Source: Loktanella sp. SALINAS62
GTDB lineage: Bacteria; Pseudomonadota; Alphaproteobacteria; Rhodobacterales; Rhodobacteraceae
DNA length: 64,000 nucleotides
Direction: 5' to 3'
Assembly (NCBI RefSeq): GCF_018263905.1
Contig: NZ_JAAFZU010000027.1
Location: 19,268-83,267 of the forward strand
Shown: one piece after another, positions 1-19,521 of the stretch
Position numbering within the stretch: position 1 is the stretch's first letter
Layout: every line of letters starts with the position of its first letter
The notes under the pieces: generated by a model
Told to the model about the DNA's origin: nothing
Database searches by the model: none
What the model saw: only the letters and a program-made list of their open reading frames with translations
Made by a program: the position numbers and the translations under genes

Positions 1-84
1 CTCGACAATTCGCTAATTCGCGCGAAATTTATCAATGATCTGATTGCTGCGATGACGCTAAACCAGTCATTATCCGAAATCTAG
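1..84 (+). CDS. C-terminal end of an unidentified protein (left edge)
   Basis: Frame 1 is open from the first base to a TAG at 82-84 and encodes 27 residues ending NQSLSEI, with an amphipathic, helix-like composition. It is cut by the window edge, so no family can be assigned. Its stop overlaps the stop of the convergent BLUF gene within a palindromic CTAG at 81-84. That tight tail-to-tail packing is the main reason to think it real. It could also be a chance open frame. Confidence 0.35.
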   Translation, partial: LDNSLIRAKFINDLIAAMTLNQSLSEI

Positions 85-506
85 ACAGAGCTTGAAGCGC
101 CTAGATCAATGCGTGCGCTTACGCCCATGAAAAACCAAATTGCTTCAGCGCACGACGCTTGCTCCGGCGTCTTCTTGAATGTTGCTTCTGCCATAAAGTT
201 CTTAAGCGACATCACATCGCTTGAGGAATAACCCATACTCCACTTCCTAAATCTGGGACGCCGTAGTTCACCATGCCCCAGCAACTTCATGTTTGTGTGG
301 CGTTCATCGAACTGAAGGCGGCTGTACAAGTCCCACAGCGGACGCGAAGGCCCTTCAATATACTGGATGAACAAACCGTCTTCGGCATGAAGGAAACCGG
401 TGAGACCGAAGAGCAAGTTTTTCAGCGTAGAGATCGTGACAATACTCTGGCAGCTTGAAGAGTCAGGCAAAACCAGTGCCTTACTTCGATATACAAGGTA
501 TTCCAT
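81..506 (-). CDS. BLUF-domain blue-light photoreceptor, single-domain
   Basis: A 141-residue protein made almost entirely of one BLUF (FAD-binding blue-light sensor) domain. Visible hallmarks are the N-terminal MEYLVYRSKA strand with the FAD-facing Tyr, the Asn in LKNLLFGLTGFL, the Gln in FIQYIEG, the DERH segment, and the Trp in RKWSMGY. These Tyr/Gln/Asn positions form the photoactive hydrogen-bond network in known BLUF proteins. I chose the ATG at 506 because GGAGG lies 8 bases upstream; an in-frame TTG at 521 has no such site. No output domain is attached, so it presumably signals through a partner, as short BLUF proteins do. The SCHIC gene at 1686-2540 is an attractive candidate partner, since AppA fuses these two domains. 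The gene lies downstream of two tiny ORFs on the same strand. Confidence 0.88.
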   Translation of the reverse strand: MEYLVYRSKALVLPDSSSCQSIVTISTLKNLLFGLTGFLHAEDGLFIQYIEGPSRPLWDLYSRLQFDERHTNMKLLGHGELRRPRFRKWSMGYSSSDVMSLKNFMAEATFKKTPEQASCAEAIWFFMGVSARIDLGASSSV

Positions 507-700
507 TGCAATATCCTCCAATTCAAGCCCTGCTTTAGTGGCGCAGGCAAAGCTTTAGGCAAAATATTGCCCTCACACCGCACCATATGCTTCGGATGCA
601 ATGCCTGCAAAACCGACCTAAGGTCCTTTCGGCAAAAAGCGTCCACCATACACTCTGTTCCAAAATGGCCAACACACGCTCCGATCCGCTCAGAAGTCAT
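422..700 (-). CDS. Small Cys-containing ORF, unidentified
   Basis: A 92-codon frame whose ATG overlaps the stop of the preceding 68-residue ORF as ATGA, suggesting coupling. The first 65 codons are free of other genes. The last 28 or so run antiparallel in register terms within the start of the BLUF gene on the same strand, which is unusual. The N-terminal half contains four Cys (CVGHFGTECMVDAFC and VRCEG) that could bind metal or act in redox. No family was recognised. It may be real, a frameshifted remnant, or chance. Confidence 0.35.
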   Translation of the reverse strand: MTSERIGACVGHFGTECMVDAFCRKDLRSVLQALHPKHMVRCEGNILPKALPAPLKQGLNWRILQWNTLYIEVRHWFCLTLQAARVLSRSLR

Positions 701-1197: not shown

Positions 1198-1285
1198 CCA
1201 ACGAAAACCAATCCCAAAGGGGGGTAGGGGTCTGAGCAAAACGAGTTCCAAAAGAGGGCGTTTCGCTGGCGTTATTGTTGTTGTT
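1198..1285. repeat. Diverged direct repeat, copy A1
   Basis: This block shares a long gapped match with 4197-4290. Shared landmarks, in order, are an AATCCCAAAGG run, GGGGTAGGGGTCTG, a segment reading AAA-CGA-TTC-AAAAG, GGCGTTT, and TTATTGTTGTTGTTA. It is the outermost part of a duplicated unit that also includes 2885-3125 and 3177-3374. Similarity stops near 1197/4197, which may mark the end of the ancestral element. Confidence 0.75.
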
Positions 1286-1685
1286 ATTGCAAGCCATCCA
1301 TCAACTTCGAGTCCGTCAGGCACCTCACAGTTGCCGATGAGCACAGCCTCGCCCCTTCGACGATACAAGCCATCCTGAGGCTGACCCAATGAGGCGTGTA
1401 GCTATCACGGCTGGTCGCAACTCTATGCTACACCCATGGTCATCGGATGGAACTAGGACTTTCAAGTCGATGCCGGAAGTGAACATTTAGGTTGGGTCGG
1501 CAGAATGTCGGCAGTGCGAACTTTCCTGCCGTTCGCTGCGGGCGCGATAGTTTGGGTTGTGCTGGCGCAGCATAAATCATCTTAGGCGGACAGCGGATAT
1601 CCATGTGAAGTACCTTTCACCACAACATGAGGCTATTGAACGAATCGTACGCTAGGTTAACGTCGGTTTCAGAAGGGAATATAAA

Positions 1686-2540
1686 ATGGGCGAACTGCAG
1701 GCTGCATTCGACGCAGAAGTGTTCTCAAGGACGACGTCACTCTTTGCATCGAAGCGTGATACCTTTCCTCCGGATGAAGTACAGGCGCTCGCGGGCGACA
1801 TCGTAAGACGTCTTGTGTCAGCCAATCTACTTGGTCCTGCATTCCACGCCCCTGTTATCCCTGAAGAGGACATTGCCGCGTTTTGTGACGCTCTTACCCA
1901 GCCCGATCCTCAAGCCTCCTTGCATTTCATTGAAAACCGACGTGCCGAGGGCATGACCCGGCAAGGCGTATATCTCAGCTACATCACTGCCGCAGCGCGG
2001 TGCTTGGGTGAAGAGTGGGAGGAGGACAGGTTATCCTTACTGCAAGTGGCATACGGAACCGGTCACCTTTACGCACTGATGCGCGCCATGAGGGCTGAGA
2101 GACCATCAGTGCAGCACCATGCATTGGACAATCGCCGTTATGCCCTGTTTGCGACGGTTCCGGGTGAGGATCACGGCATAGGGATCACCGTCGCAGCAGA
2201 TATATTCCGAGACGTTGGCTGGGATATTGATCTTCAGACTGGTACCGATCACGAAGCACTTCTCGCGCACGTTATGAATACCCAGCCGCTTTTCATCGGC
2301 CTCTCGCTGAGTACTGAGCAACGACTGGACGCGCTGGTGCGGTTGGTTGTGGGGATGCGCATCATCATGCCCAAAGCAATCATCGGCGTCGCACCGGCTC
2401 CGAACGTTGACCCTGAACGGCTGACTGACCTTGTGGACATCGATCTCGTGTTCGAAGATGCGCCTTCTGCCTGTCGCACATTGGATCGTCTGGTCCGCCT
2501 TCACAGGAGACCTGTACGCTTGGGTTGTCGATCGAATTGA
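1686..2540 (+). CDS. SCHIC/B12-binding-like protein (PpaA/AerR-type)
   Basis: A 284-residue protein with the layout of PpaA/AerR and of the AppA C-terminal SCHIC region. A helical cap (about 30-140) contains the LGEEWEEDR motif of B12-binding cap domains. A Rossmann-like cobalamin-binding fold follows (about 151-270), starting ALFATVPGEDHGIG. His163 is placed like the axial-ligand His of DxHxxG motifs, with Glu replacing the first Asp. In known photosynthetic Rhodobacteraceae this family binds heme or cobalamin and modulates the PpsR repressor. The start has AGAAGGGA about 8 bases upstream. No photosynthesis gene is nearby, and the gene is embedded between repeat blocks of an integrated element. 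A BLUF gene lies 1.2 kb away on the other strand, giving AppA's two modules as separate genes. The ligand and partner are inferred. Confidence 0.8.
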   Translation: MGELQAAFDAEVFSRTTSLFASKRDTFPPDEVQALAGDIVRRLVSANLLGPAFHAPVIPEEDIAAFCDALTQPDPQASLHFIENRRAEGMTRQGVYLSYITAAARCLGEEWEEDRLSLLQVAYGTGHLYALMRAMRAERPSVQHHALDNRRYALFATVPGEDHGIGITVAADIFRDVGWDIDLQTGTDHEALLAHVMNTQPLFIGLSLSTEQRLDALVRLVVGMRIIMPKAIIGVAPAPNVDPERLTDLVDIDLVFEDAPSACRTLDRLVRLHRRPVRLGCRSN

Positions 2541-2555
2541 TCAACCTCGGAGAAA

Positions 2556-2870
2556 GTCCGTTACGGTGGGCTGAACAGTGCCGACCACCGATACCCAGGC
2601 GGAACCGAAAATGCCATCATCTTGGCAACGCTGTCGCGCGAAATGTTGAAATGACGCGCTGCTTCTCGCTGGCTCATGCCCTCAGCACAGGCCAGCCGAA
2701 CTCTCCGATAAATGTCCACGGTGAACATCCTCCAACCCTCCCTGCGATCCGCAGAAAGGACATAGATGGACGACTATTAAGCCGCCCGCAGCAAGGTCAT
2801 CCCGCCGCTACCGTGGCCGAATTTCTCACCGCCGATTTCAGCGCCGCTGGGAGGCACCCTACAGCGTCAA
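2556..2870 (-). mobile_element. IS21-family element remnant (5' end of istA)
   Basis: On the minus strand from the ATG at about 2725 the frame reads MFTVDIYRRVRLACAEGMSQ, then REAARHFNISRDSVAKM and VPPGYR. This is the N-terminal helix-turn-helix region of IS21-family IstA transposases. The reading then leaves the family after GYR and stops within nine codons, so only about 55 of roughly 500 residues remain and istB is absent. The DNA upstream to about 2870 probably contains the element's terminal repeats. It separates the SCHIC gene from the second repeat block. Confidence 0.8.
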
Positions 2871-2884
2871 GTCGAGCATAAGGC

Positions 2885-3125
2885 CACACGGGTAGCCAAA
2901 CGATATTAGAGGGCCCCTGTGAGAGGCACTTTGAGCTTTTCCGCCAAGGCTACTTTGGGACGATCCTAAAGTAGAACCGTTTGCCGGGGCACTTGGAGCC
3001 CCACCACTCAGGGAGGCAACAAGCAAATCGCTACGCCCGATAGCTATATGTATTGACCCGCTTAGCGAGTGAAGCATCAGACAGCACAGACCCTCCCATC
3101 AATGGCCAACCTTCGCCCCCTGATA
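2885..3125. repeat. Diverged direct repeat, copy A2
   Basis: This block matches 4420-4660 along its length with many substitutions. Shared landmarks are GGGTAGCCAAACG, a CTACTTTGGGA-GATCC segment, TACGCCCGATAG-TAT, a CCCATCAA-G-CCAACCTT segment, and the distance between them. It is non-coding in both copies. It lies directly downstream of the decayed pol-like gene fragment, as copy B lies downstream of the intact gene. Confidence 0.75.
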
Positions 3126-3176
3126 GCCGTTCCTGAGATTGCCCCATTATTTGGTCAGACCCAATCAGGGTTTCAC

Positions 3177-3374
3177 CTACGCCCCTTTGCCCTTCACTGT
3201 GACCACTGGTGATAGACCACAGACATTCTTGAAGTTGCGCTTGAAGACCTCGACCCCAAGGTCCTTCCGAGAGATCAGCAAAATGATGCAGTCATGCAAA
3301 GGCAAAGCGACGACCTCGTGTGCGTCCATGAGTTCGACAAGGGTGGCCATGAGGACCCACCCCATGACCAACAA
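3177..3374 (-). pseudogene. 3' fragment of a second copy of the 455-aa pol-like gene
   Basis: The frame encodes about 60 residues closely matching the C-terminus of the intact protein at 4785-6152. Both carry the run LVELMDAHEVVALPLHDC (intact copy: LLELMDVHGVVALPVHDC), then KDLGVEVF and a CGL segment. Everything upstream of the motif-C-like HD block is missing, so the copy is dead. It is followed on the same strand by repeat block A2, in the same order as in the intact copy. Confidence 0.85.
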
Positions 3375-3389
3375 AGCGTATCAGGTTCA

Positions 3390-3467
3390 TCATGGGGTTG
3401 AACACACCACGGGGCATCCTAGGACCTCAGCATTACGGGCTTCCAGATCATCGAAGTGGGATGTCAT
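3390..3467 (-). pseudogene. Short 5' gene fragment, tentative
   Basis: An ATG at 3467 preceded by CAGGAGAA opens a 25-residue frame beginning MTSHFDDLEARNAEVLG. It resembles the first residues of rhodobacterial CoA-ligase-type proteins and then stops. With a good ribosome site but no body, it may be the stub of a gene cut by the duplication junction near 3375. The family suggestion rests on memory of N-terminal sequences and is weak. Confidence 0.25.
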
Positions 3468-3577
3468 AGCGCGTTCTCCTGTCCAGGTCCTGCTTAGTCT
3501 GACGCTCTGGACAATCGAAAGCTAGGGGCGGTGCCGGGCGCTATTCAGCCGCGCTGTCAGCGGATAACACGTCAGGG

Positions 3578-3964
3578 TCAGTCCGGCTCTGCGCTGTTGC
3601 GGCAGATGTTGACCATGGCACGCACCATTGCGTCGGAGACCTCTGCTTCGGTGCCCATATTGTCCGCACCCGGTACTGCGTTTTCGGTCGCCGTCGCGGT
3701 ATCATCCGGGGATGCCGCTTCATCGGACGATGTCATTGCTCCGACCGCACCGCTGTCCACCCCGGCATCCGGTGGGGGCATCGTGTCAGACCCAACCGTC
3801 GACAAGTTGGCAACCGCATCGATCTGCGCATCCGCATCCAGTTCAAGAAACTGCGTGCAGGTCAGCGTCGGATTGCCCGCGCCAATGTCTATGGTCTGTG
3901 CCACGGCAGGCATGGTGAAAGTCGTCAGCGCCGCGCAAGCCGCAGCCAATGTTGTGCTATTCAT
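3578..3964 (-). CDS. Exported HdeA/HdeB-like small protein
   Basis: A 128-residue protein starting MNSTTLAAACAALTTFTM, with a signal peptide ending about AVAQ. The mature part opens with TCTQFLELDADAQIDAVANL, like the Cys-containing first helix of HdeA/HdeB acid-stress periplasmic chaperones. It ends VRAMVNICRNSAEPD with the second Cys, so the expected disulfide pair is present. Between them lies an unusual Asp/Ala/Ser/Thr/Pro-rich, low-complexity stretch of about 50 residues that is probably disordered. I chose the inner ATG because it directly precedes the signal peptide. It sits alone between the two element copies. Chaperone function is inferred. Confidence 0.6.
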   Translation of the reverse strand: MNSTTLAAACAALTTFTMPAVAQTIDIGAGNPTLTCTQFLELDADAQIDAVANLSTVGSDTMPPPDAGVDSGAVGAMTSSDEAASPDDTATATENAVPGADNMGTEAEVSDAMVRAMVNICRNSAEPD

Positions 3965-4784
3965 CGAAAGCATCCCGTTACAACCGACATTCCCCAAGTG
4001 GGCTGCCGCCTGACGTAAGCGTTGCCTGATATTGCCGCCAGATCAAGTGATTCGCCTTCCCAGCCTCGACCAAGGTCGTCAGAGAGCTCGAAGCCCAGAA
4101 CTTCGCCCCGCATCGCCCCTCCGCCCATAAGAGACGTCCTTTGCGACGTCGTTATGCACGTATCTTAGGCCCTTACGCCAAAATCTGGCAGGCGGTGCCA
4201 ATCGGGTGGTTAATCCCAAAGGGGGGGTAGGGGTCTGTACAAATCGACTTCAAAAAGAAGGCGTTTTGTTAGCCTTATTGTTGTTGTTACGCCGTTGAAG
4301 CCCATGCGGTCGATACCGACCAATCATCAGACTGTCACCCAGCATCCTAAAGAGCCTGTAGCCTCGTAGCGCCACTGGCGGGCACCCCACAACACTAAGT
4401 CTGCCTTTCCGCCAGATGGGGGTAGCCAAACGCCGCCAATGGGCCTCTATGGAGGCGACTTTGTGCTTTCTCTGACAGTCTACTTTGGGATGATCCCAAA
4501 GCAGGGTCGTTGCGCTGGGCACCTACCCTCGTCCCGTCGGGTGCTACCCAACAGCAATTCCTTACGCCCGATAGTTATGCGTAATGACCTTCTGAAGGTG
4601 TGCCCCAGAGGTCAGCATAGATCACCCCATCAACGCCCAACCTTGGGGCTACTATGGATCACAAGATGACCCAAGGAATGACCCAAGCGTTGGTGATACC
4701 CACCACCCCTGAGAGAACCAGCTAGGAACATTCGATAGTTCCAGACACCATTGATGTAATCCCAACCTAATTGGTCTGCACCAT
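3965..4784. repeat. Gene-free stretch with repeat copies B1 (4197-4290) and B2 (4420-4660)
   Basis: I see no intact gene here. The block 4197-4290 is the partner of 1198-1285, and 4420-4660 is the partner of 2885-3125. Only about 130 bases separate the two blocks here, against about 1.6 kb in the other copy, where the SCHIC gene and IS21 remnant lie. Both blocks are downstream of the pol-like gene, so they may be its 3' untranslated DNA or the element's terminal region. A minus-strand stub at 4113 starting MRGEVLGFE faintly recalls an IS OrfA. Confidence 0.7.
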
Positions 4785-6152
4785 TCAAGCCAAGCCTTGG
4801 GCCTCTGAGCCCTTAAAGGTTACAATCGGTGTAAGACCGCAGACCGACTTAAAGTTACGCTCGAAGACCTCCACGCCGAGGTCCTTCTGAGAGACCTGCA
4901 CAATGATACAATCATGGACTGGCAAAGCGACAACCCCATGGACGTCCATGAGTTCGAGAAGAGTGCCCATGAGCATGCGCGACTCATCGTACTGCAAGCT
5001 GGCCCAATCAATCCCTCGGGCCTTCAATTCACCTAGGATGGGATGAACCCTAAGGACCCTACCCCACGCAATTCTACAGGTCAGGCTTTTAGGTAATGGC
5101 AGTTGACCATCGTTTGCCAGTTCCTTTCTGAAAGCCCTAGGCCATCTGGTAGGATTATCGCCTTTACCAATCGCCATGTTGACCAGCTTTTTTACCACCC
5201 ACCTAGTCAGCCCCGGAATCTCGTAGGGGTCCTTGGTCTGATCCATGTGCATTCCTGTGACGCCATAGATTAACGTGAGGTGACAAGCCTGAATATCCAG
5301 CTCGCAGGTCGGCTCGCCGTCGATAGTAACACCGTATCGTTTGGCCTTCTTTATGCTGGTCAAACTAATGGGGGCGTGGTCCGCTAACCGACCTCCTTGA
5401 TCGAACGCATAGTCGGGATCGTCGCCGTTGTGAAAAGTTCTAGACAGGTCTGGCAGCAGCCCAAGATTGAACTCGTGCTCAAGTAGGAACTCATTGTACC
5501 GCCTGACGTCAGCCACAAGGTCTTGTACGACGGGGTCAGACTTGTTGAGAGGCATACGCCGTGCCTCATCGCGTCCAACCCTTCGGGCCTTGAGGACAAC
5601 GGGGTAGCTGAGTTCCCGATTTGGTCTGAAATGGTCATTGAAGGTGTCTGTGGTGATCTCTGCGAATGACCCTACAAGGTCTAAAAGTTCCGACGTGGCC
5701 CTATATCGAGCAGCCTTTGCGAAATCGACCGTTACCGCACCACCGAAATGCCGACCCTTTTTCTGGAAGCCCCTGTGGCTCTCTACCAGACCCATTTGAG
5801 GCCAAGCTGTCCTGAGCCGGTCAAAATGATCCTCTGTCATGTACGTACTGTCAAACGATCCAGAGTCCGAAGAACGGTACATAAAGCCCCCGGCCTCTTC
5901 ATGGTAAGCGTGAGACAGCAGGTCCGCCAAGAACGCCCCGAGAGCCGTGCAAAAGGTTTCCCTGTCCTTTGCTCGACGACGCCGCTTTCTGAGGCCATTC
6001 GCCATCTCAAAGTCTTCGGTCCGACTGGCAAGACCGTCAATCAATGCCTTGGCTTCAGGACTGAACGGATAGTGGCGCAAAGTTGCCATCCTCGCAGCGT
6101 CAAACATACGCTTCAGGTCTGTGTGCGCGTCGAAGGGTGAATCGCCGTCCAT
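4785..6152 (-). CDS. Element-encoded protein with polymerase-like palm motifs
   Basis: A 455-residue protein of a family that I recall as uncharacterised and found near integrases and plasmid genes. Its C-terminal half shows three motifs in the order of family-A DNA polymerases and T7-type RNA polymerases. A motif-A-like segment is GEPTCELDIQACHLTL with Asp286. A motif-B-like segment is TRWVVKKLVNMAIG with Arg317 and Lys321 (RxxxK). A motif-C-like segment is VVALPVHDCIIV with His413-Asp414. An RTFHNG...DQGGR block (239-255) precedes motif A. Spacing is compact (A to B about 35, B to C about 92 residues), so it would be a minimal palm. The N-terminus has a basic run KRRRRAK at 56-62. It sits directly downstream of the integrase on the same strand, and a truncated second copy lies at 3177-3374. 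Polymerase or primase activity is inferred from motifs only. Confidence 0.75.
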   Translation of the reverse strand: MDGDSPFDAHTDLKRMFDAARMATLRHYPFSPEAKALIDGLASRTEDFEMANGLRKRRRRAKDRETFCTALGAFLADLLSHAYHEEAGGFMYRSSDSGSFDSTYMTEDHFDRLRTAWPQMGLVESHRGFQKKGRHFGGAVTVDFAKAARYRATSELLDLVGSFAEITTDTFNDHFRPNRELSYPVVLKARRVGRDEARRMPLNKSDPVVQDLVADVRRYNEFLLEHEFNLGLLPDLSRTFHNGDDPDYAFDQGGRLADHAPISLTSIKKAKRYGVTIDGEPTCELDIQACHLTLIYGVTGMHMDQTKDPYEIPGLTRWVVKKLVNMAIGKGDNPTRWPRAFRKELANDGQLPLPKSLTCRIAWGRVLRVHPILGELKARGIDWASLQYDESRMLMGTLLELMDVHGVVALPVHDCIIVQVSQKDLGVEVFERNFKSVCGLTPIVTFKGSEAQGLA

Positions 6153-6180: not shown

Positions 6181-6363
6181 TCAGGATGGAAACGCCTTCA
6201 TCAAGGCCGCTTGCTTGCGCTCAAGGCTATGGCCCTTCCCGTAGTTCGCCTGTGAACCTCCACCTGTGGAATGCCCAAGGATGGCCTCTTGCAGGTCAAG
6301 GGACACGTCAGCGTCACGCAGGGCGTCCTTGAGGCTATAAAGGGGGTGCCTAGGGTCAGTCAT
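6181..6363 (-). pseudogene. C-terminal remnant of a second tyrosine integrase
   Basis: A 60-residue frame whose ATG overlaps the integrase stop (ATGA). It reads LKDALRDADVSLDLQEAILG, then HSTGGGSQANYGKG and LERKQAALMKAF. This matches the last catalytic segment of tyrosine recombinases, with the LGH His and the nucleophilic Tyr. The HxxR box is damaged (HPLYSLKD, no Arg). It cannot recombine alone. It may be the tail left by an integrase replaced by recombination, or a small DNA-binding peptide kept by coupling. Confidence 0.65.
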
Positions 6364-7691
6364 GCTGTCTCTTTTTGAACCAATTCGTCTGGCATCTTGC
6401 TTATGGGGTAGCTCAACTGGGACATAGCTGCGGCCTTTACGGCTAAGTTCACGCCCCCCGAATAGTGACCGTAAGTCATCGTCGGCTTTTCGTGCCCAAC
6501 GATGTCGGCAGAAACGTTCTCTGGTATGCCTGCAATCTCAAACAACGTGACCACGGTCTTCCGGATGCTGTGGAAAACCTTGGTCGGGCCAAACCCCGAT
6601 TTCGTCTTCAGTTTGCCAAAGCGTTTGCCGACGCTGGCAGCACGATCACCGAAGACGTCAGGCTTTAGTCCGGACAATACGAAACCATCATTACTAGTGG
6701 ACACGAGATGGTCCATCAGTGGCTTCAGCATCGGGTGGATAGGAACGTGCCTGTCGCCTGCGTCTGTCTTGCTGTCAAAGACCTCAAAGCTATCAGCAGA
6801 GACCCGATCAACCTGAAGAGCGCCGATTTCTCCAATCCGACATCCCGTCCACATGGCGATCCAGATGATCTGTGAAAGCCTGATGTCACCCTTTTTGATG
6901 GCAGCGTTCAAAAGAAAAACGACCTCGTCGACCTCGAACGGCTTCCTGATATCCTCTCGCTTAACCCTTTGAGACCTACGGGCCTCTAGGACGTCTTTGA
7001 AAGGTTCTGTTTCCTCAGGTGCGAAGCCCTTGCGTTGAAGATAGGTCCAATAAAGGCGACAAACGGAAATGATCCGCCTAACAGTCGCGACTTTCAGACC
7101 ACCCTCCTGAAGGGTATCGACCCACTTTCGGACCTCCGGCCTCGTAACGTCGGCGGTCTGCGGAAATCGTTCAGAAAAACGCTTAAGGTCTGTTCGACGC
7201 ATCGCAATAGTCTTTGCTTCGACATCAATAGACTTTAGCCACGCCTCGGCATGGAGATTGGTAGGGATGGATTGCCCAAGGACAATCTGGCGAACCACTT
7301 CAGCCTTATTCCGGTCAACCTTACCAAGCCTCTCAACTTCGTCCTGTAAGATGCCGTTGTAGGTAATTTGAAGGAACTGGGCGTCATCGCGGTCATCTTC
7401 AGACAAACGCCGATCATTCAACCGCCTCTCATTCGCTAGATAATCTTCACGCCATTCCAGTGCACGATAGACGGAAAGGTCTGACAGGTTTGGGCGTCCT
7501 TCACGGGCAGCCTGAACTTGCATCTTCCAATGCGCGACGACCTGCAAAACCCGTATTTCAGCTTCACGCTGGCTGTCGGTTTTCAGAGACTGGACGAAGC
7601 GAGCCTTGCCCTCAAAGTAAGACCTGACATCCTTCGGCACCTCGAGAACTGCATACCAACCGCGTCGTCGTTTCTGAAGATATTGGGGCAT
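6360..7691 (-). CDS. Tyrosine recombinase / site-specific integrase
   Basis: A full-length 443-residue phage-type integrase. The N-terminal part (MPQYLQKRRRGWYAVLEVPK) is the arm/SAM-like DNA-binding region. The core-binding domain spans about 150-240. The catalytic domain carries Arg in TGCRIGEIGAL, the HSIRKT box (His and Arg), GHEKPT, and the nucleophile Tyr in TYGHYSGG, so all key residues are present. It would integrate and excise the element encoding the pol-like protein. Its start is preceded by GTGTGGT-rich direct repeats (7693-7726), a likely site of arm binding or autoregulation. It lies about 100 bases from a tRNA/tmRNA-3'-end-like sequence that could be the attachment site. Confidence 0.92.
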   Translation of the reverse strand: MPQYLQKRRRGWYAVLEVPKDVRSYFEGKARFVQSLKTDSQREAEIRVLQVVAHWKMQVQAAREGRPNLSDLSVYRALEWREDYLANERRLNDRRLSEDDRDDAQFLQITYNGILQDEVERLGKVDRNKAEVVRQIVLGQSIPTNLHAEAWLKSIDVEAKTIAMRRTDLKRFSERFPQTADVTRPEVRKWVDTLQEGGLKVATVRRIISVCRLYWTYLQRKGFAPEETEPFKDVLEARRSQRVKREDIRKPFEVDEVVFLLNAAIKKGDIRLSQIIWIAMWTGCRIGEIGALQVDRVSADSFEVFDSKTDAGDRHVPIHPMLKPLMDHLVSTSNDGFVLSGLKPDVFGDRAASVGKRFGKLKTKSGFGPTKVFHSIRKTVVTLFEIAGIPENVSADIVGHEKPTMTYGHYSGGVNLAVKAAAMSQLSYPISKMPDELVQKETA

Positions 7692-7692
7692 C

Positions 7693-7726
7693 TACCACAC
7701 ACGCTTACCACACACGTTCACCACGA
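7693..7726. repeat. GTGTGGT direct repeats at the integrase start
   Basis: TACCACACACG occurs at 7693-7703 and again at 7706-7716, followed by a degenerate TTCACCACG at about 7717-7725. On the integrase strand this reads CGTGTGTGGTA twice, immediately upstream of its ATG. The period is 13 bases. These could be integrase arm-type or excisionase sites, or an autorepression site. Confidence 0.5.
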
Positions 7727-7772
7727 TTTACGCAGCGTTATCAGTACTTTCAATGCGTTAAATGCGCAACAG

Positions 7773-7795
7773 CGAGTACCCCCTAGGCTCCACCA
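7773..7795 (+). other. Possible attachment site (tRNA/tmRNA 3'-end-like)
   Basis: CGAGTACCCCCTAGGCTCCACCA ends in GGCTCCACCA, the usual end of tmRNA and some tRNA genes, about 80 bases beyond the integrase start. No full tRNA precedes it, and the T-arm spacing does not fit exactly, as expected of a duplicated att core rather than a gene. The full RNA gene would lie to the left of this window. This is tentative. Confidence 0.3.
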
Positions 7796-7879
7796 AATTC
7801 CCGTATTTCACTTGCGTCATTGCGGCCCTTGGGCTGTCGTCAGACGCCCTGCTTGCACGCGATGACCATCCCGGCTCAT

Positions 7880-7908
7880 ATCCCGCGACCCTGAATGGAT
7901 CGCGGGAT
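7880..7908. terminator. Hairpin between Gfo/Idh gene and element edge
   Basis: ATCCCGCGA (7880-7888) and TCGCGGGAT (7900-7908) form a perfect 9-bp stem with an 11-base loop. It lies downstream of the minus-strand oxidoreductase gene. There is no T run on either side, so it may be a weak or factor-assisted terminator, or simply a structural boundary. Confidence 0.4.
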
Positions 7909-7944
7909 TGGTGCGAAACGGCACAGCCGTATCAATGTTCGGTA

Positions 7945-9102
7945 TCAGCGGAACATCGGCGGACGTGCGTCCAGCCAAGCACCATCCGCCTTACCGCTGG
8001 CGGCGACGGCATGAACCGCCGCCATCGACCGCAAACCATCCGTCGCGCGCGGATACAGGTTCGCCGCCGGGTCCATTTCACGGCCGTCCTTGCGGGCACG
8101 GATCGCTTCGGCCAGATCGGTGTAGATATTGGCGAAAGCCAGTGGCATCCCTTCGGCATGGCCCACGGTGACGCGGCTGCTGCGGTCGGCCTCTGGTGAC
8201 AGGCCGCCCTCACCGCGTTCGATGACCTGCAATCGACCACCCAATGGCATGTAATGCAGCTGATTGGGCTGTTCCTGTGCCCAGCGCAGGCCACCGGTTT
8301 CGCCAAACACCTGAATAGTCAGCCCGTGCTGCCGTCCCAGCGCGATCGACGATGTCCAAAGCCGCCCGACAGCACCGCCATCCATGCGAAAGTTGACCAT
8401 CGCATCATCTTCCAGCGTGCGCGACGGGATGCAGGACACGCAGTCAGCGGACAGTTTGGTCACCTCTTGACCCGTGACGAAACTGGCCATGTGCAGCGCA
8501 TGGATACCACAGTCGGCAAATTGCGCGGATACCCCGGCCTGCGCGGGATCATACCGCCAGCGCACGCGCGGATTGTCGGCGTCGGCGGCATCGGCGTGGT
8601 GGCCATGCGCAAATTCCGCCTTGACCAGACGGACCTGTCCGATATCGCCCCGCGCCACCATCGCCCGCATGTGACGCACCAGAGAATAGCCGCTGTAGCC
8701 GTAGTTGACCGCACAAATCCGGTCGGTTGATTCAGCGATCCTGACGATTTCCTCGCCTTCCTCGACCGTCATCGTCATCGGCTTTTCGCACAGCACGTGA
8801 AACCCGCCTTCCAGAAAGGCCTTTGTAATTTCGAAATGTGTACTGTTGGGCGTCGCCACAGTCACCAGATCGATACGATCGTCGCGGCCGCGTTCGCCCG
8901 CCAGCATTTCCGTCCAGTCGCCATAGGACCGGTCCGGCGTCAGCCCCAGCCGCTGACCATAGGCGCGGCCTGCATCCGCGCGATGATCCAGCGCGCCTGC
9001 GGCAAAGGTGAACAGACCATCCAGACCCGCACCCAAACGATGCGCCGGGCCGATCTGGCTGCCTTCGCCGCCACCGATCATCCCCCAATTCAATTTCGCC
9101 AT
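7945..9102 (-). CDS. Gfo/Idh/MocA-family NAD(P)-dependent oxidoreductase
   Basis: A 385-residue protein starting MAKLNWGMIGGGEGSQIG, whose GGGEGSQIG loop is the dinucleotide-binding site. HVLCEKPMTM carries the family's EKP catalytic Lys. A C-terminal alpha/beta substrate domain follows from about residue 130. These enzymes oxidise sugars or inositols. It diverges from iolC over 81 bases, so it is likely an inositol or scyllo-inositol dehydrogenase of the same regulon. The exact substrate cannot be read from sequence. The start has no alternative upstream Met with a ribosome site. Confidence 0.88.
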   Translation of the reverse strand: MAKLNWGMIGGGEGSQIGPAHRLGAGLDGLFTFAAGALDHRADAGRAYGQRLGLTPDRSYGDWTEMLAGERGRDDRIDLVTVATPNSTHFEITKAFLEGGFHVLCEKPMTMTVEEGEEIVRIAESTDRICAVNYGYSGYSLVRHMRAMVARGDIGQVRLVKAEFAHGHHADAADADNPRVRWRYDPAQAGVSAQFADCGIHALHMASFVTGQEVTKLSADCVSCIPSRTLEDDAMVNFRMDGGAVGRLWTSSIALGRQHGLTIQVFGETGGLRWAQEQPNQLHYMPLGGRLQVIERGEGGLSPEADRSSRVTVGHAEGMPLAFANIYTDLAEAIRARKDGREMDPAANLYPRATDGLRSMAAVHAVAASGKADGAWLDARPPMFR

Positions 9103-17599: not shown

Positions 17600-18763
17600 T
17601 CAGCCGTTCGACTTTTCCCAATGTCGCTTGATCCCCTTGGCCAGCGACCAGCGATGCACCTCTGACGGACCGTCGTAGATGCGGAAGGCGCGGATTTCGC
17701 GAAACACCTGTTCCACGATGGTTGCGTCCGACACACCGGTGCCGCCCATGACCTGAACACAGCGGTCAGCCACGCGCATCAGCGCTTCTGACACGGCCAC
17801 CTTGGTCATAGAGCTTTCGCGCCCCGCCCGTTCACCACGGTCCAGCGCATCGGCGGTCCAGTCGATCATCAAACGCGCCTGTTGCAGGTCGATCAGGTTG
17901 TCGGCCAGCATGAACCCCACGCCTTCGTGGTCAATCAGTGCCTTGCCGAACGCTTGCCGACGATTGGCGTAATCCGTCGCAATTTCGTTGCAGCGGATGC
18001 AGGCCCCCAGCCAGCGCATGCAATGGGTCAACCGCGCCGGGGCAAGACGCACCTGCGCATATTTGAACCCTTCGCCAGGATCACCCAGCATCTGGTCGGC
18101 GGGGATACGCAGATCTTCGATCTCGACCGTGCAATGGCCGCCGGGCAGGCTGTTGTCGATGGTGCGGGGCTGGTGAACGATGCGGATCGCAGGGTCCGGC
18201 AGATCGACAAGGAACATGCAGGCACCCTGTTCGGCTTTTGCCATGACAATCCCGATTTGCGCCTGTGCGGCACCCGTGATCCAACATTTGCGCCCGTTGA
18301 CGACCCAATGATTGCCGTCCGGCACACAGGTGGTCTGCATCATCGACGGGTCCGACCCTGCCCCGCCATCGGTCCAGGGTTCGGACATGAAAAACGCCGA
18401 TCGCGCCGTGCCTGCGACCAGCGGATCAAGAAATCGGGATTTCAGCGCGTCCGACCCGACGCGCCCCAGCAGATAGATATTGCCTTCGTCCGGGGCGGCG
18501 GTGTTGCAGGCCAGCGGGCCCAGTGGCGACAGGCCGGACGCGATCAGCACCTGCGCGGTTTCACGGTGCGTCAGATGGTGGCCATCGGCCCGGATATGCG
18601 GCGTCATCACGCCCGCCTCGCGCGCAAGGGCGCGCAGGTCGGCGATAACGTCTTCGGTCGGGCAGTTGTGGGCGTCGCGGCGCGGGTCTTTTTCGAACGG
18701 TGCGACGACGTTTCTGACAAAGGTTTCGACGCGGGCGGCGATTTCGGTGGCTGTCTGCGTCAT
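17600..18763 (-). CDS. Acyl-CoA dehydrogenase, ACAD10/11-like
   Basis: A 387-residue acyl-CoA dehydrogenase of the ACAD10/11-like branch. MSEPWTDGGAGSDPSMMQTT is the flavin loop. QVMGGTGVSDATIVEQVFRE and IYDGPSEVHRWSLAKGIKR mark the C-terminal domain, where an Asp-Gly-Pro box replaces the Glu-Gly-Thr of short-chain enzymes. Mammalian relatives act on branched or 4-hydroxy acids, so the substrate here may be a hydroxylated or branched acyl-CoA. It overlaps the upstream SDR gene by 4 bases. A 67-base gap separates it from the next gene. Confidence 0.87.
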   Translation of the reverse strand: MTQTATEIAARVETFVRNVVAPFEKDPRRDAHNCPTEDVIADLRALAREAGVMTPHIRADGHHLTHRETAQVLIASGLSPLGPLACNTAAPDEGNIYLLGRVGSDALKSRFLDPLVAGTARSAFFMSEPWTDGGAGSDPSMMQTTCVPDGNHWVVNGRKCWITGAAQAQIGIVMAKAEQGACMFLVDLPDPAIRIVHQPRTIDNSLPGGHCTVEIEDLRIPADQMLGDPGEGFKYAQVRLAPARLTHCMRWLGACIRCNEIATDYANRRQAFGKALIDHEGVGFMLADNLIDLQQARLMIDWTADALDRGERAGRESSMTKVAVSEALMRVADRCVQVMGGTGVSDATIVEQVFREIRAFRIYDGPSEVHRWSLAKGIKRHWEKSNG

Positions 18764-19521
18764 TTCGGTGCCATGCGGATCGCACCGTCCAGACGAATGA
18801 CCTCTCCGTTCAGCATCGGATTTTGGGCGATCGCCTGCACCAGCCGGGCGTATTCGTCAGGATCGCCCAGACGGTTCGGAAACGGCACCTGCGCGCCCAG
18901 ACTGTCCTGTGCGTCCTGCGGCAGGCTTTTCATCAGCGGGGTCAGGAACAGGCCCGGTGCAATGGTCATGACCCGGATGCCAAACCGCGCCATTTCGCGT
19001 GCGGCAGGCAGGGTCAAGGCAGCCACGCCCCCCTTGGATGCCGCATAGGCGGGTTGTCCGATCTGGCCATCAAACGCCGCGACAGAGGCCGTGTTGATGA
19101 TCGCGCCGCGTTCCTCTCCCAGCGTGTCAAGCTTTTGCAGATGGGCCGCGAATTTTGACATCACATTGAACGTGCCGACCAGATTGATGTTCACGATCCG
19201 GGCGAATTCGGCCAGCGGCAGCGGGGTGCCGTCGCGGTTCACGATCTTGGCGGGCGGGCCGATGCCCGCGCAGTTCACGCACAGGCGCGGCGGCGTCGGG
19301 CCGGAAAACGCGGCGTCGATCGCATGCGCGACAGCGGCGTCATCGGTAACGTCGGCCTGCGCAAACGTGCCACCGATGTCTTGTGCCAGCGCGCGACCCA
19401 GATCGGCGTTCATGTCCAGAATTGTGACCTGCGCGCCACCTGCGGCAAGCCTGCGTGCGGTCGCGGCCCCCAGACCCGATGCGCCACCCGCGACGACCGC
19501 CCCGATGCCATTGATTTCCAT
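18760..19521 (-). CDS. SDR 3-hydroxyacyl-CoA dehydrogenase (HSD10-type)
   Basis: A 253-residue short-chain dehydrogenase. GGASGLGAAT is the NAD loop and ILDMNAD gives NAD specificity. The NCAG segment, the catalytic Ser in INTASVAAFDG and YAASKGGVAAL (Tyr and Lys) complete the triad. The C-terminal MTIAPGLFLTPL and FPNRLGDPDEYARLVQAI segments resemble type II 3-hydroxyacyl-CoA dehydrogenases (2-methyl-3-hydroxybutyryl-CoA dehydrogenase, isoleucine degradation). It is first in the seven-gene operon, which fits branched-chain catabolism. Confidence 0.88.
   Translation of the reverse strand: MEINGIGAVVAGGASGLGAATARRLAAGGAQVTILDMNADLGRALAQDIGGTFAQADVTDDAAVAHAIDAAFSGPTPPRLCVNCAGIGPPAKIVNRDGTPLPLAEFARIVNINLVGTFNVMSKFAAHLQKLDTLGEERGAIINTASVAAFDGQIGQPAYAASKGGVAALTLPAAREMARFGIRVMTIAPGLFLTPLMKSLPQDAQDSLGAQVPFPNRLGDPDEYARLVQAIAQNPMLNGEVIRLDGAIRMAPK

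Follow-up and report, generated by a model that had tools for sequence, protein, structure and literature searches.

A 455-residue protein encoded beside an integrase raises the question of whether so compact a protein belongs with the polymerases that its motifs recall and, if so, what it would do for the DNA that carries it. We examined its gene within the window (the whole stretch of 64,000 nucleotides that was analysed), starting from an earlier note that had read the gene product, from the letters alone, as a palm protein with active-site motifs in the A-B-C order of family-A DNA polymerases and T7-type RNA polymerases (RNAPs).

Active-site motifs and family membership

The gene is open on the minus strand, and several stops interrupt frame 1 of the plus strand over the same interval (Table 1). 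The coordinates 4785-6152 in the earlier note were correct, as were its motifs and residue numbering; the translation contains CELDIQACHL (Asp286), TRWVVKKLVNMAIG (Arg317, Lys321) and ALPVHDCII (His413-Asp414). In a first survey of 20 homologues the invariant columns were R238, G254, R255, R272, D286, Y310, R317, K321, H413 and D414; the alignment from that survey (A1) was made without the frameshifted pieces L005, L021 and L028 of genome G006, the short or cut L024, L030 and L002, and L020, L023 and L029, which had no tblastn listing. We then used an enlarged alignment, in which 59 rows were kept out of 66 ORFs of at least 300 aa. The two catalytic-type aspartates do not vary freely there, Asp286 being present in 59/59 rows and Asp414 in 57/57 ungapped rows (the rows gapped at motif C are the 341-aa ORFs L171 and L172), and Arg317 and Lys321 are each kept in 58/59. 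The sole misses are R317 in L175, K321 in L171 and H413 in phage protein AUR84708, which has Phe. Conservation extends to R255 (59/59), which lies at the predicted strands 236-241 and 255-258 of the hairpin preceding motif A, to R272 and Y310 (59/59 each), to the fingers aspartate D308 (55/59) and to an acidic residue, E or D, at 390 (56/59). Motif B had been written as TRxVxKKxVxMAxG; its RxxxK part is conserved and its MAxG part is not. In some viral members motif A reads EIDYSQIHPR or EEDYSQIHPS, close to DYSQIELR of Pol I.

Table 1. Positions of the polymerase gene, its motifs and the surrounding element features in the window.
Feature	Position	Strand	Basis
TV-Pol/divPolA2-type polymerase gene, 455 aa	4785..6152	-	ORF, ATG start at 6152; PHROG 4756; predicted palm fold
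Palm/fingers core (predicted), residues 178-452	4797..5621	-	aligned to Pol I, mitochondrial RNAP and T7 RNAP chains
N-terminal domain, about residues 31-165, tentatively winged-helix-like	5658..6062	-	models of the window protein and of L032
GGR hairpin, Gly254-Arg255, counterpart of Pol I TGRLSS	5388..5393	-	59/59 rows; hhalign
Motif A, Asp286; His291 at +5, the place of Glu710 in Pol I	5295..5297	-	Asp in 59/59 rows
Motif B, RxxxK (Arg317, Lys321)	5190..5204	-	58/59 rows each
Motif C, His413-Asp414	4911..4916	-	56/57 and 57/57 ungapped rows
Tyrosine integrase, 443 aa (DUF6538 + Phage_integrase)	6360..7691	-	Pfam; upstream of the polymerase gene, same strand
C-terminal remnant of a second integrase, about 59 codons	6184..6360	-	6195-6336 is 84.5% identical (142 nt) to the G223 integrase gene
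Decayed C-terminal fragment of an older polymerase copy	3181..3353	-	77% identical to 4801-4973; E 1.3e-22, 71% aa
Non-coding, downstream of the older copy	3022..3113		72% identical to 4553-4644
Non-coding, downstream of the intact polymerase gene	4553..4644		72% identical to 3022-3113
Repeat of about 80 bp, polymerase-distal side; candidate element end, att site or origin	4208..4300		86% identical to 1210-1286
Second copy of the repeat, probably the end of the older element copy	1199..1290		repeat comparison

The window protein matched no Pfam family, even at E 10, and nothing in NCBIfam or PADLOC, and a sequence search of the PDB returned chance-level matches only (best E 0.1). It does match PHROG 4756 (function unknown; E 4.3e-23), as did 9/9 proteins tested, itself and AUR84708 among them. 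AUR84708 is a representative of divPolA2, and a profile built without phage sequences matched it at E 1.1e-25 (Z set to 1e5); homology to divPolA2 is established by this profile match and the common PHROG. With the protein as query, homologues were found in 18/198 genomes of the host's family, and with a 21-row profile in 25/398 genomes of its phylum; relatives occur in Thioclava, Sphingomonas and Bradyrhizobium. At E 0.01, tblastn found homologues in 18/50,697 phage records and 3/72,556 plasmid records. Scanning with the window protein yielded one relative among the genome contigs, and scanning the viral contigs with the protein and then with a 5-row alignment yielded none; the IMG/VR contigs picked by a degenerate GGRLYGG-WQ pattern all encode relatives (9/9). 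One more polymerase of the family, distantly related to the window protein, is encoded in the host's own genome (L170, G000:C40:210-1157). Another genome has two polymerase genes (L059:8295-9371 and 18146-19222), each adjoining an rve-type transposase gene, the two transposases scoring near-identically.

Families of this kind are already in print. TV-Pol proteins are PolA/T7-RNAP-like minimal polymerases of mobile elements, predicted to be primase-polymerases, with members in Rhodobacterales and other alphaproteobacteria and a subset that bears an extra N-terminal globular domain and sits beside a lambda-type integrase, resolvase or transposase (Iyer, Abhiman and Aravind 2008, PMC2579912). As the available text of that paper describes them, their common features recur in the window family: two palm aspartates, the hairpin arginine, the fingers aspartate and RxxxK, the lack of a nuclease domain (absent among the 6 Pfam families found for 21 members) and a mobile-element neighbourhood with an integrase, resolvase or transposase. 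The same text predicts an all-helical TV-Pol N-terminal domain, whereas our models show helices plus a two-strand wing, and it associates TV-Pol with a D5 helicase, whereas none was recognised by the window gene. A weak link joins the family to Microcystis phage Ma-LMM01, whose best-scoring ORF among those of at least 120 aa is gp030 (hmmsearch E 2.9e-4; hhalign P 4.5e-4, probability 33%); a faster search for this link found nothing. Probably this gp030 is the TV-Pol to which Iyer et al. refer. It is a 506-aa hypothetical protein (L207:3247-4767) adjoining two transposase genes, and its residue at motif A +5 is His, as in the window protein.

The phage family divPolA2 was described from genomes that have a regular DNA polymerase besides; its genes lie in variable neighbourhoods, and a part in repair or transcription was suggested (Yutin et al. 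2024, PMC11348598). By that description the window protein is like divPolA2 in having an active-site palm without an exonuclease or known thumb, and in its structural matches to DNA polymerases and mitochondrial RNAP; it differs in lying in a bacterial contig beside an integrase, within a separate recombinase-linked clade that has no viral rows. Because it does not stand beside a regular DNA polymerase in a tailed-phage genome, we file it as a divPolA2 homologue and not as divPolA2 itself. Pipolins, as described, are likewise integrative elements with a polymerase of their own, but theirs is of family B (PolB plus integrase). The family had been thought still to be annotated as hypothetical, which is true of the databases and not of the literature, where TV-Pol was described in 2008 and divPolA2, its phage branch, in 2024. 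We thus class the window protein with the TV-Pol-type polymerases of integrative elements, as a relative of divPolA2; the kind is already known.

Fold, sugar gate and the choice between DNA and RNA polymerase

An AlphaFold2 model made with 11 rows (the window protein, L003 and L031-L039) had a mean pLDDT of 74.7 and a pTM of 0.68, with 10-residue blocks over 271-450 at pLDDT 71-97, all except one at 82 or above. Comparison of the model with the PDB bore out the expectation of a family-A/T7-type palm, predicted over residues 178-452 (Z 13-14). The best 50 VIA-align rows were family-A DNA polymerases or single-subunit RNAPs throughout (Z 12.5-13.9), among them yeast mitochondrial RNAP 8att (Z 13.9; 243 residues, 3.6 A), apicoplast Pol 5dkt (Z 13.8) and T7 RNAP 1s77 (Z 13.0); because VIA Z differences under 1 are ties, the fold does not distinguish a DNA polymerase from an RNA polymerase. 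Foldseek gave 15 PDB matches at E ≤0.001 (best E 2.7e-4), and its best 50 rows were all family-A DNA polymerases, at low whole-length TM-scores (0.20-0.33). In BFVD the top matches were unnamed or uncharacterised phage proteins, one of the best ten being called ‘DNA polymerase’ (Rheinheimera phage Barba31A, 435 aa). Neither a Pol I thumb nor an exonuclease was recognisable in the window protein; the TV-Pol thumb is described as two antiparallel helices, and ahead of the hairpin the model has one long helix (207-224).

By sequence profile the resemblance to Pol I is modest. In local mode, a 35-member profile scored 33.0 against 25 bacterial Pol I sequences plus T7 gp5 (200 column shuffles, ≤22.8; reversed profile, 14.7) and 33.3 against seven phage RNAPs (shuffle maximum, 23.7). 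The 35-member core was aligned by hhalign to Pol I plus T7 gp5 over 235 columns (P 8.9e-4, probability 23.1%), in a register that set GGR on TGRLSS, motif A on DYSQIELR, RxxxK on RRSAK and HD on HDE; the enlarged profile was aligned to the same set over 200 columns (P 5.3e-5, probability 66.8%), and to the seven phage RNAPs over 42 columns near motif C (P 0.0014, probability 17.9%). The A-B-C order read by the earlier note thus stands, with the motifs in register with those of Pol I, and the conserved motifs exceed chance both in residue conservation and in a profile score above the shuffles.

Where the family departs from Pol I proper is the sugar gate, the pair Glu710 and Phe762; in a bacterial PolA reference set Glu, Phe and Tyr766 were present in 25/25. 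At motif A +5, the position of Glu710, the 59 rows of our alignment hold H (26), Y (8), G (6), F (6), N (3), M (3), Q (3) and one each of S, L, A and E, the only Glu being that of phage AUR84708. Four residues after the motif B lysine, at the position of Phe762, Phe occurs in 1/58 rows, and at K+8 Tyr occurs in 2/58, so that the RxxxK...YG of T7 motif B is not kept. By these residues the window family likely lacks the usual ribonucleotide filter. With the Glu + Phe gate missing, it would therefore either have another gate, for which the His or Tyr at +5 could serve, or take rNTPs. The available parts of the TV-Pol, divPolA2 and CCPol papers gave no description of such a loss, and it is the most testable new point; it makes the choice between dNTPs and rNTPs directly testable. 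The divPolA2 representative at L153:25469-26761 differs from the bacterial rows in having Glu at motif A +5 and in carrying Phe where their motif C has His.

Ahead of the palm, the N-terminal domain was modelled on homologue L032 (pLDDT 83.0), where it runs helix-helix-strand-helix-helix-strand-strand, the order of a winged helix. The top Foldseek rows for this model were PadR/MarR-type winged helix-turn-helix (wHTH) proteins (probability up to 0.99, best E 0.017), and VIA Z for the domain was at most 6.9, below the tool's trust level; we therefore call the domain winged-helix-like only tentatively, from the model of the homologue. A likeness to the N-terminal region of T7 RNAP (1msw residues 64-258, Z 6.9, the best row; 4/50 rows were T7 RNAP) was set aside, a ribosomal protein (6.8) and TFIIE (6.7) having similar scores, and nothing was built on it because all of these scores lie under the trust level.

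These comparisons bear on whether the protein, in place of replicating DNA, could transcribe the element or produce a long RNA as a single-subunit DNA-dependent RNA polymerase, an option raised for divPolA2 by Yutin et al. (PMC11348598). The best VIA row is the yeast mitochondrial RNAP, tied with Pol I rows and with T7 RNAP not far below; the ten best PDB matches of the A1 profile all fall on mitochondrial RNAP motif C (E about 0.035-0.042); Pfam RNA_pol touches 2/21 members (best E 0.012); the 35-member profile scores phage RNAPs level with Pol I; and the Glu710 equivalent is missing in 58/59 rows and that of Phe762 in 57/58. We nevertheless consider this reading unlikely and do not make it our first choice, because Pol I was matched across all motifs (200-235 columns), whereas the alignment to phage RNAPs in local mode was limited to the vicinity of motif C (42-45 columns). 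It also sits poorly with the loss of ...YG from motif B, with a protein in which no promoter-recognition domain was recognised and whose N-terminal T7 RNAP likeness lies within the winged-helix noise, and with a protein about a third to half the size of the T7 and mitochondrial enzymes. Sequence does not by itself decide between DNA-polymerase-like and RNA-polymerase-like behaviour.

Integrase linkage and the make-up of the element

As had been claimed, the neighbour of the gene is an integrase, assigned by Pfam to the tyrosine type, and integrase linkage is general across the family. Across all 58 loci a tyrosine integrase lies within 3 kb in 31 and within 5 kb in 36; for the cellular and plasmid (non-viral) loci the counts are 29/49 and 34/49, against 1/16 control regions of 17 kb (34/49 vs. 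1/16, Fisher p 1.5e-5), a contrast somewhat inflated by the seeding of the integrase profile with integrases that adjoin these polymerase genes. In 9/49 of these loci the integrase gene immediately precedes the polymerase gene, with the same orientation and no more than 300 nt away, and 15/49 have none within 5 kb, some of them near contig ends. A maximum-likelihood tree of 57 cores (57 of the 59 aligned rows; root arbitrary) placed the window protein in a 16-row clade with support of 100/100 and no viral row, and AUR84708 outside it on a long branch. Within this clade the integrase is at most 3 kb away in 13/16 rows and at most 3.4 kb in 15/16, that of L049 being 8.8 kb away. When the ORFs of 74 loci were compared with the window integrase, its next-best relatives came from L051, L046, L054 and L049, all of them loci of the window polymerase clade.

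We surveyed 68 of 82 neighbouring proteins from 14 clade loci and found 11 Phage_integrase and 7 Resolvase matches; no helicase, D5-like or other, was seen among the 25 of 52 Pfam families listed for these 68. Defence-type genes also occur beside some homologues: the order on a Sphingomonas plasmid is integrase, HTH protein, polymerase, hypothetical gene and then vsr, HNH and cytosine methyltransferase genes, and the surroundings of the Thioclava homologue include AbiE and methyltransferase genes. The polymerase could on this account be part of an island's anti-phage defence cargo, which we hold to be very improbable, as the recombinases recur whereas the defence genes vary, and neither the window polymerase nor its integrase matches a PADLOC model. 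In prophage L035 (12804-13352 and 11513-12811) the polymerase homologue and an RNase H gene (PHROG 531), both on one strand, overlap at the start of the homologue; methyltransferase and helicase genes follow, as in L032.

The window also preserves traces of related insertions (Table 1). The integrase gene that matches the remnant, in congener G223, precedes a polymerase 46% identical to the window polymerase, and sequence of the same type is found in G229. Because a decayed polymerase C-terminus and a copy of its 3' flank lie downstream of the intact gene, the site has probably received the element at least twice. Of 9 congeners, 3 have the repeat of about 80 bp, and these are also the 3 with a window-type polymerase; no copy was found in the remaining 6. 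A hairpin origin is not supported, since single-stranded folding was not clearly better than shuffles in any of 4 copies (z 1.15, -1.02, -0.42 and 0.73). A search for att sites found no exact repeats of at least 10 bases between 2000-4790 and 7600-8300, and the congener comparison showed no empty integration site because the flanks differ. Neither a helicase nor an MP-like partner was seen in the ORF list of the window element.

Near the older element copy are a BLUF blue-light sensor gene and a gene for a B12-binding domain (window 81-521 and 1686-2540; Pfam), and in G223 the stretch from the polymerase gene to the repeat contains a BLUF gene; these genes may be photoreceptor-type cargo or may mark a shared integration neighbourhood. 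In another congener the polymerase is split over several ORFs near a contig end (L044:17944-18627, G006:C66), with the same repeat, and is probably decayed.

A proposed role for the polymerase

The earlier note had suggested a small polymerase or primase that serves an integrative element. The predicted palm fold, the conserved aspartates and the integrase linkage agree with this, and from them we infer catalysis and a role in the element, including priming, origin binding, element replication and use of a host helicase. On balance we think that the window protein probably primes and/or copies its small integrative element. The element would consist of the tyrosine integrase, the polymerase and the conserved repeat at the polymerase-distal side, and the polymerase would be a minimal one, a family-A/T7-type palm and fingers behind a winged-helix-like N-terminal domain. 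That domain would bind the element's origin or direct the polymerase to it, the polymerase would prime and/or extend DNA on the excised element, and the host would supply a helicase and the bulk of the synthesis.

The precedent for a priming role, on which this moderately favoured reading leans by analogy, is CCPol, the TV-Pol of SCCmec, which primes DNA together with its partner MP and needs both palm aspartates to do so (Bebel et al. 2020, PMC7581432); the CCPol/MP findings were later extended to Bacillota (Rice 2023, PMC10061031). To its authors' knowledge CCPol is the only TV-Pol to have been biochemically characterised (PMC7581432). It too is a mobile-element A-family polymerase linked to recombinases. 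Compared by description and not by sequence, it has no N-terminal domain, whereas the window family has its own, and it keeps equivalents of Glu710 and Phe762 and prefers dNTPs (PMC7581432), whereas the window family is without both residues. Because the family is without the residues by which CCPol discriminates against ribose, the precedent may not carry over.

CCPol alone cannot prime and only extends primers, and it needs the OB-fold partner MP to begin (PMC7581432, PMC10061031). The same observation suits an accessory repair or gap-filling polymerase that would complete integration or tolerate damage without priming, in which the N-terminal half could replace the thumb; repair was also suggested for divPolA2 by Yutin et al. 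(PMC11348598). This seems to us quite unlikely, given that no repair partners were recognised next to the window gene and that linkage to integrases and resolvases suits element replication at least equally.

The reading in which the protein primes and/or copies the element admits a bolder form, which we regard as doubtful: one protein of this clade would be both origin recogniser and RNA (or mixed RNA/DNA) primase of a two-gene integrative element, with no MP-like partner, its palm having lost the ribonucleotide-excluding residues and an origin-binding winged helix having been acquired. If this were true, an A-fold RNA primase would be a further solution to priming beside DnaG and the archaeo-eukaryotic primases.

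What is new here is the recombinase linkage of the clade, the tentatively winged-helix-like N-terminus and the absence of the ribose-excluding Glu and Phe. PHROG 4756, a ‘hypothetical’ family, becomes a testable primase/polymerase, and the phage divPolA2 of 2024 is now linked to bacterial integrative elements with TV-Pol features. Together, the integrase, the polymerase and the repeat would offer a compact model for how an A-type polymerase may start without a primer.
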